From NCBI GenBank assembly GCA_947451115.1, contig CANFXV010000001.1:1-64000 (forward strand): a stretch of DNA of 64,000 bases. Reading direction: 5' to 3'. A model generated the notes under the pieces. The model did not search any database. It was given only the letters and a program-made list of their open reading frames with translations, and was not told where the DNA came from. Numbering within the stretch: the stretch's first letter is position 1; each line of letters opens with the position of its first letter. The stretch is from Bacteroidota bacterium. GTDB taxonomy: Bacteria; Bacteroidota; Bacteroidia; Chitinophagales; Chitinophagaceae. The position numbers and the translations under genes were made by a program. This document shows, piece by piece, positions 15,929-62,738 of this stretch.

Positions 15929-16510
15929 TTAACGAAAGAAGCCTTCTTGTACCTCCTCTGGACTTAAACTAATAAGGTCACCTGGCATCATGCCTTGTAT
16001 CGTAAATAGGCCTATTTGCGCTCGAATTAAGCGTAATACGGGAAATTGAACCGATGCAAACATTTTTCGGACCTGTCTATTCTTTCCTTCTATTAATTCA
16101 ATTTCTACCCAAGAAGTAGGAATATTTTTTCTAAATCGAATGGGTGGATTTCTTTCAGGTACCGCTACCGGGGCTTCTAATAGGGCAAGACGCGCGGGCT
16201 TTGTTTTGAACACTACTCCATTAATATTAATAGATACTCCTTGTGTAAGCTTTGCAATGGCTTCATGGGTGATTTCCCCTTCTACTTGAACCCAATATAT
16301 TCTTGCATGTTCAAATTGTGGATGAAGTAATTGATGATTCAATTTGGAATCATTGCTTAAGAACAATAAACCCTCACTGTCATAATCTAATCTACCAATG
16401 GGATATACATCTTTAGGTACCTCTACTATATCCTTCAAGCACAACTTGCCCTCTGTAGAAGTAAATTGACTTAATACTTGAAAGGGTTTGTATATTAAAT
16501 AATGATTGAT
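15929..16510 (-). CDS. 23S/16S rRNA pseudouridine synthase (RsuA/RluB/RluE family), start codon non-canonical or missing
   Basis: PIGRLDYDSEGLLFLSND core; frame upstream of the TTG at 16444 reads FINHYLIYKPFQVLSQFTSTEGK with no ATG/GTG/TTG before the stop at 16528. Confidence 0.85.
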   Translation of the reverse strand: MNHYLIYKPFQVLSQFTSTEGKLCLKDIVEVPKDVYPIGRLDYDSEGLLFLSNDSKLNHQLLHPQFEHARIYWVQVEGEITHEAIAKLTQGVSININGVVFKTKPARLALLEAPVAVPERNPPIRFRKNIPTSWVEIELIEGKNRQVRKMFASVQFPVLRLIRAQIGLFTIQGMMPGDLISLSPEEVQEGFFR

Positions 16511-16527: not shown

Positions 16528-16560
16528 AAAAACAAAGTCCCCCTGAATGCTCAAGAGGAC
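16528..16560 (-). terminator. intrinsic terminator
   Basis: Minus strand GTCCTCTTGA-GCAT-TCAGGGGGAC (10 bp with G:U pairs) followed by TTTGTTTTT. Confidence 0.75.
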
Positions 16561-16606
16561 CTCGTATATAGATGGGTTAGTAAGTACGGGAATCAGATTC
16601 CCTTCA
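16528..16606 (-). ncRNA. candidate short ncRNA or leader/attenuator
   Basis: Promoter-like TTTG-N19-TAATATTG upstream, 5' hairpin GGGAATctgATTCCC, 3' terminator; about 80 nt. Confidence 0.45.
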
Positions 16607-16637
16607 CAATATTAATTATACTTTTTTCTAATTCAAA
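16607..16637 (-). promoter_or_regulatory. putative Bacteroidota-type promoter (-33 TTTG, -7 TAATATTG, 19-nt spacer)
   Basis: Minus strand ...TTTTTTG aattagaaaaaagtataat TAATATTG. Confidence 0.45.
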
Positions 16638-16946
16638 AAATATTTTAAACAAATTTATTGACGTTATCCACAATTGGGCAAAATTGATGATCATTTAAAA
16701 TTTAATTTATGGATGATGAACTCAAGTTATTAAAAATATTTTCATGATTAATTTTTTTTAGAATTAATTGAAACATTGATGAATAAAGCGTTTCAGAAGA
16801 TGCCTTTTTTTAATTTTATTTACTTAACTTATAAATAAAACTGTGGGCACGGTAGCCAAACTGGTCTTTTTTTATACATAAAATGGGTAAAAAGATTTTT
16901 TTACAAAAAACCCTTGTTACCTTTGATTTAGGCCAAAAACATACTT

Positions 16947-17891
16947 ATGAAGCTCCCAGCACCTATTTCGGTACAATGGTTGTCAAGTTTTACGAACGCT
17001 GAAATTATAGGAAATACGCAATTAGAAATTACTGGTGTGAATGAAATTCATCAAGTAGAAATGGGTGATATTGTTTTTGTAGATCATCCAAAATATTATG
17101 CTACTTGTTTAAATAGTGCTGCTACTTGTATCATCATCAATAATAAAGAAGTAAGCATCCCAGCGGGTAAGGCTTTATTGTTTTGTGCCGATCCATTTGA
17201 AGCCTATACTAAAATTGTGCAACATTTTAAACCTTTCATCGTATCAGATGATGCTATAAGTAAAGAAGCCATTATTGGTACGGGCACTATTGTGATGCCC
17301 CATGTTTTTATTGGTCCGGGCGTAGTGATTGGAAAAAATTGTGTGATTTATCCAAATGTAACCCTACTCCCTGATACCATTATCGGGGATGAAGTAATTA
17401 TACAAGCAGGTACAGTGATTGGTAGCGATGCTTTTTATTACAATACCAAAAAAAATCGTCCTGCCTGGTATAAAAAAATGCCTAGTTGTGGTAGAGTAAT
17501 TATTGAAGACAAAGTAGAAATTGGCGCCAATTGTACTATTGACAAAGGCGTTAGCGGAGACACTATTATAGGTATGGGCACTAAAATGGACAATATGGTG
17601 CATATTGGTCACGACACTCAAATTGAGGCCAATTGTTTGTTTGCTGCACAAGTAGGTGTAGCCGGTGGAGTTAAAATTAAAGCAGGCGTCACCATTTGGG
17701 GCCAAGCCGGGGTGGGTAAAACCTTAACCATTGGTGAGAATGCCACCTTATTGGCAAGAACTGGCGTAGTTGGAGATATCGAAGGCAATAAAGTTTACAT
17801 GGGATTCCCTGCCGAAGAAGCAAGCATCAAAAGAAGAGAATTGGTTTGGATCAAACGTATTCCACAGCTTTGGAAAAAAATGATGGAATAG
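16947..17891 (+). CDS. lpxD: UDP-3-O-acylglucosamine N-acyltransferase (LpxD)-like
   Basis: Left-handed beta-helix hexapeptide repeats; GSDAFYYN, NMVHIGHDTQI; LpxD-type N-terminal domain. Confidence 0.8.
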   Translation: MKLPAPISVQWLSSFTNAEIIGNTQLEITGVNEIHQVEMGDIVFVDHPKYYATCLNSAATCIIINNKEVSIPAGKALLFCADPFEAYTKIVQHFKPFIVSDDAISKEAIIGTGTIVMPHVFIGPGVVIGKNCVIYPNVTLLPDTIIGDEVIIQAGTVIGSDAFYYNTKKNRPAWYKKMPSCGRVIIEDKVEIGANCTIDKGVSGDTIIGMGTKMDNMVHIGHDTQIEANCLFAAQVGVAGGVKIKAGVTIWGQAGVGKTLTIGENATLLARTGVVGDIEGNKVYMGFPAEEASIKRRELVWIKRIPQLWKKMME

Positions 17892-61680: not shown

Positions 61681-61721
61681 ATACTAACTAACCCTAAAAA
61701 ACAAAATCTTTATGGAAACAA

Positions 61722-62738
61722 TTATTTAGCGGCCTCTTCGGCTTTTATTGCCAGCTTTGCCCTGATTTTTGCTTCAATTTCATTGGCCATTTCTGGATTA
61801 TCATGCAATATTGTTTTTACAGAATCGCGTCCCTGGCCTAGCTTATTGCTGTCATAGCTAAACCAGCTTCCGCTTTTTTGTATAATTTCTAATTCAACAC
61901 CCATATCAATAATTTCTCCAATTTTACTAATTCCTTCGCCGAATATAATTTCAAATTCTGCGGCTCTAAATGGTGGTGCTACTTTATTTTTTACCACTTT
62001 TACCTTTACTCTATTTCCTATTGCCTCATCACCATCTTTTATTTGTGCCATTCTTCTAATATCTAATCTAACAGAAGCATAAAATTTTAAAGCATTTCCT
62101 CCTGTGGTGGTTTCTGGGTTTCCAAAAACAATACCTATTTTTTCTCTTAATTGATTAATAAAAATACAGATGGTGTTTGTTTTATTAATAGTAGCGGTTA
62201 ATTTTCTTAATGCTTGACTCATTAATCTTGCATGTAATCCCATTTTACTATCGCCCATTTCTCCTTCTAACTCGCTTTTTGGAACGAGCGCTGCTACTGA
62301 GTCTATCACTACTACATCAATAGCACCAGATAAAATTAAACGATCTGCTATTTCTAAAGCTTGTTCACCATAATCTGGTTGAGAGACTAATAAACTATCT
62401 ACATCAACGCCTAATTTTTTAGCATAAGCACTATCAAAAGCGTGTTCAGCATCTATAATTGCACACATGCCACCTTTTTTTTGTGCTTCTGCAATTACAT
62501 GAATTGCTACGGTTGTTTTTCCTGAAGATTCTGGTCCGTATATTTCAATAATTCTACCTTTTGGTAAACCGCCAATTCCTAATGCGGTATCTAATCCTAT
62601 TGATCCTGTGGAAATTACTTCTTGTGGTTCTTGACTTCTTTCATTCATCATCATCACACTACCCTTGCCATAATCTTTGTCAATTTTGTCAATCGTTAAT
62701 TTTAATGCTTTTAGTTTTTCTACATTTGGGTTACTCAT
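61722..62738 (-). CDS. recA: recombinase RecA
   Basis: [31 protein letters not shown]. Confidence 0.97.

Follow-up and report, generated by a model that had tools for sequence, protein, structure and literature searches.

Few sRNAs of Bacteroidota are known outside Bacteroides and Flavobacterium, and the nearest in kind to the RNA described here are GibS and FopS of Bacteroides (PMC7366714, PMC11697453). Like it, they are intergenic Bacteroidota RNAs with a sigma-A promoter, an extended unpaired seed and a terminator; they pair with mRNAs, the seed lying at the unstructured 5' end and targeting start-codon regions of metabolic or PUL genes. FopS has been deposited in Rfam (PMC11697453). Rfp18 and other sRNAs of Flavobacterium psychrophilum are likewise conserved Bacteroidota sRNAs, but they come from another order and are structured RNAs with predicted stem-loop pairing to protease mRNAs (PMC9723704). 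In the literature searched we found no work on sRNAs in Chitinophagaceae, no regulator acting post-transcriptionally on recA or radA in Bacteroidota, and no paper containing TACTTACTAACCC.

The window, by which we mean the whole 64,000 nt stretch of Chitinophagaceae DNA that was analysed, appears to encode an sRNA on the minus strand at 16528..16602 (covariance model match 16528-16605, 96.9 bits), which is single-copy in the genome concerned. Its putative promoter (16607..16637, minus strand) is of the Bacteroidota sigma-A type, is conserved in homologues, and consists of a -33-like TTTG at 16637-16634 and TAATATTG at 16614-16607; this spaced pair, TTTG-N19-TAATATTG, occurs twice in 64 kb against an expectation of 0.47. 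The TAnnTTTG consensus has been mapped in Flavobacterium to positions -12 to -5 (PMC9723704), and with the -7 box at those positions transcription probably starts at ~16602, the first G of a 5' hairpin (GGGAAT-CTG-ATTCCC, 16588..16602, minus strand) that shows paired changes across homologues, so that the RNA would begin with this hairpin and be ~75 nt long. Between hairpin and terminator is an unpaired stretch of about 22 nt, GTACTTACTAACCCATCTATATA (16587-16565, minus strand), containing the proposed pairing segment, a core TACTTACTAACCCAT (16572..16586, minus strand) that is near-invariant in 141 loci and whose mean probability of being unpaired is 0.85. The intrinsic terminator (16528..16564, minus strand) is made up of a 14-bp stem (16564-16533) and a tract of five T (16532-16528), which would place the 3' end of the RNA at 16528. 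The sRNA piece folds better than 200/200 shuffles (z -3.2). Two coding readings were rejected: a small ORF on the sense strand of the sRNA has no start codon before the core, and an antisense ORF (MLKRTSYIDGLV...) is lost, by inspection of homologues, wherever the terminator sequence changes.

All elements of the promoter-hairpin-spacer-terminator unit that the original prediction placed on the minus strand are present. That prediction had set stem conservation in homologous loci as one of its tests and had proposed a covariance model search in Chitinophagaceae. The model, built from the window's sRNA, matches in 123/135 sampled Chitinophagaceae genomes and in 0/264 genomes from other families of the order, with one copy per positive family genome and a weak second copy in G323. 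This second copy, of core and terminator (L269, G323:C1:1110543-1110606), lacks the usual promoter. Five of the 12 apparent negatives in the family do carry the core, with altered hairpins, and four of those adjoin rluE or lpxD. A sample of the phylum returned family members only, plus three matches without the core (L148-L150), which we regard as false positives. Loci of the same genus, identified via the neighbouring pseudouridine synthase, keep a block of ~140 nt at 80-99% identity; in three loci of more distant Bacteroidota (L004, L005, L008) the core is kept and the stems are altered but still paired. In some genera (L268, L319, L339, L352) the RNA has lost hairpin 1, and the core sits instead in the loop of a short stem, AAGGAT...ATCCTT.

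Both stems covary. In an alignment of 100 homologues that was fitted to the model, and so leans towards it, 14/15 modelled pairs change on both sides; such two-sided cells number 203, compared with 64 after shuffling, and the signal collapses when the partners are slid. The 5' hairpin has two-sided changes in 5/6 pairs with ~82% of cells paired, and the terminator in 9/9 modelled pairs with 89.5% of cells paired. The core, UACUUACUAACCCAU, is nearly invariant among the homologues. No family in Rfam (release 15) scores above its gathering threshold for the sRNA, and the matches at E<=10 were dismissed as chance. With its own promoter and terminator, covarying stems, an invariant unpaired core, family-wide presence and no Rfam match, the locus strongly supports the proposal of a novel sRNA of ~80 nt, at a predicted ~75 nt.

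The core has an exact 15-nt complement, ATGGGTTAGTAAGTA, in 44/46 genera (one genome each), typically twice per genome, once at the sRNA and once in one other place. As a control, the reversed pattern has 0 matches in these 46 genera, and the exact 15-mer is absent from 48/48 genomes of other families of the order; same-genus genomes were searched for it as well. In 48 loci the other place is the leader of radA (RadA by TIGR00416), where the layout is TTTGTAATTTAG-N5-GAATTTA-ATGGGTTAGTAAGTA-hairpin-T run, 64-480 nt before radA, and where the complement is as invariant as the core itself. The radA site is missing from the reduced-genome clade to which the window belongs and from genus g56. Ten genomes with deviating cores show no compensatory changes between core and radA site, only wobble-compatible ones, the site being mostly invariant; single-base core changes opposite an unchanged radA site give a tolerated G.U in G330, G332 and G420 and a mismatch in G334, G375 and G414. 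Within the radA leaders (e.g. L297, L346) invariance extends past the pairing part to the whole of GAATTTAATGGGTTAGTAAGTA, in which AUG GGU UAG forms an open frame of two codons.

A second group of sites lies downstream of recA. In the window, recA (61722..62738, minus strand; PF00154, E 5e-137) carries in its 3'UTR, directly before the recA terminator, the candidate pairing site GGGTTAGTTAGTA (61682..61694, minus strand), which would form 8 bp, a mismatch and 5 bp with the core and is also kept by five sister species. The predicted interaction is -13.0 kcal/mol, and 0/200 site shuffles are as good. In an energy-based target ranking that covered the 64-kb window, with the RNA's own antisense left out, the recA site comes about fourth on duplex energy, three places being slightly better, so the case for this site rests on conservation and not on energy. 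The window's genome has lost the radA site, and the GGGTTAGTNAGTA pattern was found in it at the recA 3'UTR alone. Across the family the recA 3'UTR element, exact or degenerate, occurs in 26/27 readable genomes (G123 is without it), and in 21/27 fewer than 3/300 shuffled UTRs pair as well with the core of the same genome; in the G047 clade the recA sites carry wobble-type changes that keep pairing. In the genus of the window there is a further site in the 3'UTR of a BrxA/B bacilliredoxin gene (TIGR04191). These sites typically lie directly 5' of a terminator. Three loci (L310, L354, L364) have extra exact complements between an hsp20-like gene and another gene, in the partly self-complementary form TACTTACGATGGGTTAGTAAGTA, and in one genome (L347, G325) the core sequence itself stands between ftsA and ftsZ, just before ftsZ.

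Upstream of the sRNA promoter is a 9-mer resembling a DnaA box, TTATCCACA (16664..16672, plus strand). Exact TTATNCACA is found upstream of the sRNA in 111/136 homologous regions, compared with 1.4 in shuffles; its distance is fixed, and its usual form is TTWTCCACA-N13-TGTGAATAA. The same 9-mer (<=1 mismatch) occupies a fixed place at 25/48 radA-leader promoters. The element common to both sets of promoters is DnaA-box-like, with DnaA a candidate factor.

The original prediction left a choice between a free-standing sRNA and a transcription attenuator of the downstream gene, and the neighbouring genes bear on it. The divergent lpxD (16947..17891, plus strand) is present in 131/141 homologous loci. 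On the other side is an rluE-like pseudouridine synthase gene (15929..16510, minus strand; PF00849, TIGR00093), and the T tract does fall, as predicted, at the beginning of its frame, with an in-frame TAA there and no ATG/GTG/TTG before the conserved domain. Where relatives have their ATG, the window (at 16510-16508) and four sister species (L083-L085, L088) have an ATC in the alignment, which looks like a genuine non-canonical start; in L086, L087 and L089 the start is a TTG one codon earlier. Where rluE is not the next gene, that place is usually taken by yicC, on the same strand and coding for a YicC-family endoribonuclease (L124, L127, L130, L203 and about 30 more loci); the YicC protein of E. 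coli reportedly acts on the sRNA RyhB (PMC10715208). An rluE start 18 nt past the T tract leaves no room for a promoter of its own, so in the window transcription probably reaches rluE by reading through the sRNA terminator, and this proximity, together with rluE directly downstream in 84/141 loci, is what favours a cis attenuator whose hairpins would either end transcription or let it continue into the pseudouridine synthase gene. However, only those 84 loci have rluE in that position, and the sRNA and its terminator are kept unchanged with yicC, with lysS (four same-genus genomes), with other genes, or with a convergent gene downstream (13 loci, by a crude longest-ORF reading). Nor is an anti-terminator conserved: the segment GAGGTCCTC, which had been proposed to form an alternative stem competing with the terminator, is not kept outside the genus, and attenuation would leave the conservation of the core unexplained. 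Because the association with lpxD is kept while rluE is variable and the downstream gene sometimes convergent, we favour the free-standing sRNA; rluE attenuation as the conserved function is very improbable, and read-through into rluE is probably a secondary, local consequence at most. The upstream boxes allow quite another reading, in which the inverted pair TTWTCCACA-N13-TGTGAATAA and an AT-rich stretch are part of the chromosomal origin. There are only two boxes, however, and the conservation of promoter, hairpins and terminator follows the pattern of a transcript; an oriC at the locus was also rejected on the GC-skew of two complete relatives (G365, G010), where coarse sampling in 20-kb pieces puts the switch 100-250 kb away. 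We give an origin here almost no credence.

Two further readings accept the core and its complement as a pair of elements and differ over what they do. Roles could be reversed: the small RNAs would be the terminated leader of radA and the recA and brx mRNA 3' ends, all sharing the seed GGGUUAGUAAGUA, and the RNA encoded beside lpxD would titrate them. 3'UTR-derived sRNAs usually have such an element immediately before their terminator, the unit lying 64-480 nt before radA combines element and hairpin with a promoter of its own, and the element varies as little as the core; yet no other conserved RNA carrying the core was found as a target for such seeds, the single core-like site before ftsZ being confined to one genome, and we think this reversal unlikely. 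Alternatively, core and complement might be DNA or protein-binding elements, such as sites for a regulator or an RNA-binding protein, that do not pair with each other at all, a reading that would agree with the lack of compensatory change between the two. It fits poorly with sites that lie within transcripts and always in the same sense orientation, the core being unpaired and its complement standing before a terminator, with one strand in the sRNA and the opposite strand in all partners, and with the wobble-type changes in recA sites of the G047 clade that keep pairing. We consider it decidedly improbable.

It is probable, in our assessment, that the locus encodes a free-standing, trans-acting base-pairing sRNA of Chitinophagaceae whose core pairs with elements in the radA leader and recA 3'UTR, most likely setting the level of RecA and RadA. 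The features expected of a trans-encoded base-pairing sRNA are found, namely a promoter and terminator of its own, covarying structure, and a conserved unpaired seed complementary to RNAs encoded elsewhere; compensatory seed and target changes, a supporting feature, are absent from the 10 genomes with deviating cores. The gene, its conservation and structure, and the complementary sites next to terminators of DNA-repair genes are established at the level of sequence. Since the complementary sites are conserved and a DnaA-box-like promoter element is shared, base pairing with recA and radA RNAs is likely. Beyond this we infer that the gene is transcribed, that its RNA pairs in the cell and controls RadA and RecA output, and that there is an input from DnaA or replication. 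RNA polymerase would start at ~16602 and stop at 16528 on the minus strand, giving a ~75-nt RNA of 5' hairpin, unpaired invariant core and terminator. The core would then pair with RTGGGTTAGTAAGTA, an element that immediately precedes intrinsic terminators in the leader of radA, in the 3'UTR of recA and, for some species, in that of a BrxA/B bacilliredoxin gene. Such pairing would most likely set the level of the RecA and RadA recombination proteins, the points of action being the leader of radA and, for recA mRNA, its stability or its 3' end. Conversely, the sRNA may be titrated by the short terminated leader of radA and by recA 3' ends. The link of the circuit to replication would come from the DnaA-box-like element that both promoters carry. 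A fuller version is offered tentatively, as possible but less likely than not: DnaA, or a factor using the same box, would co-control two RNAs that are perfectly complementary over 15 nt, the sRNA and a short radA-leader RNA, and RecA/RadA output would be set jointly by their pairing beside the terminators, also at the recA 3' end. The complementarity of the core to the radA and recA tags suggests a conserved, undescribed RNA circuit controlling DNA repair.

Several known systems share parts of this arrangement. Enterobacterial 3'UTR-derived and sponge sRNAs likewise have a pairing element directly 5' of a terminator, and they act with Hfq. The CcnA ncRNA of Caulobacter, likened here by description, is also tied to the replication programme and acts on RNAs of central regulators, but it is encoded within the origin, is driven by CtrA, measures ~180 nt and targets the ctrA and gcrA 5'UTRs (PMC8959179). 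From FopS and GibS, to which it is nearest in kind, the Chitinophagaceae sRNA is set apart by their descriptions, its own search of Rfam at gathering giving no match: FopS is multicopy, whereas this RNA has one copy and belongs to another family, and its seed lies between two hairpins with candidate sites next to terminators of DNA-repair genes. It would be a core sRNA of a whole family for which likely partners are already in view, together with promoter boxes in common and a duplex of 15 bp that hardly varies. The target layout is unusual in that the proposed pairing sites immediately precede terminators, both in a 5' leader and in 3'UTRs.
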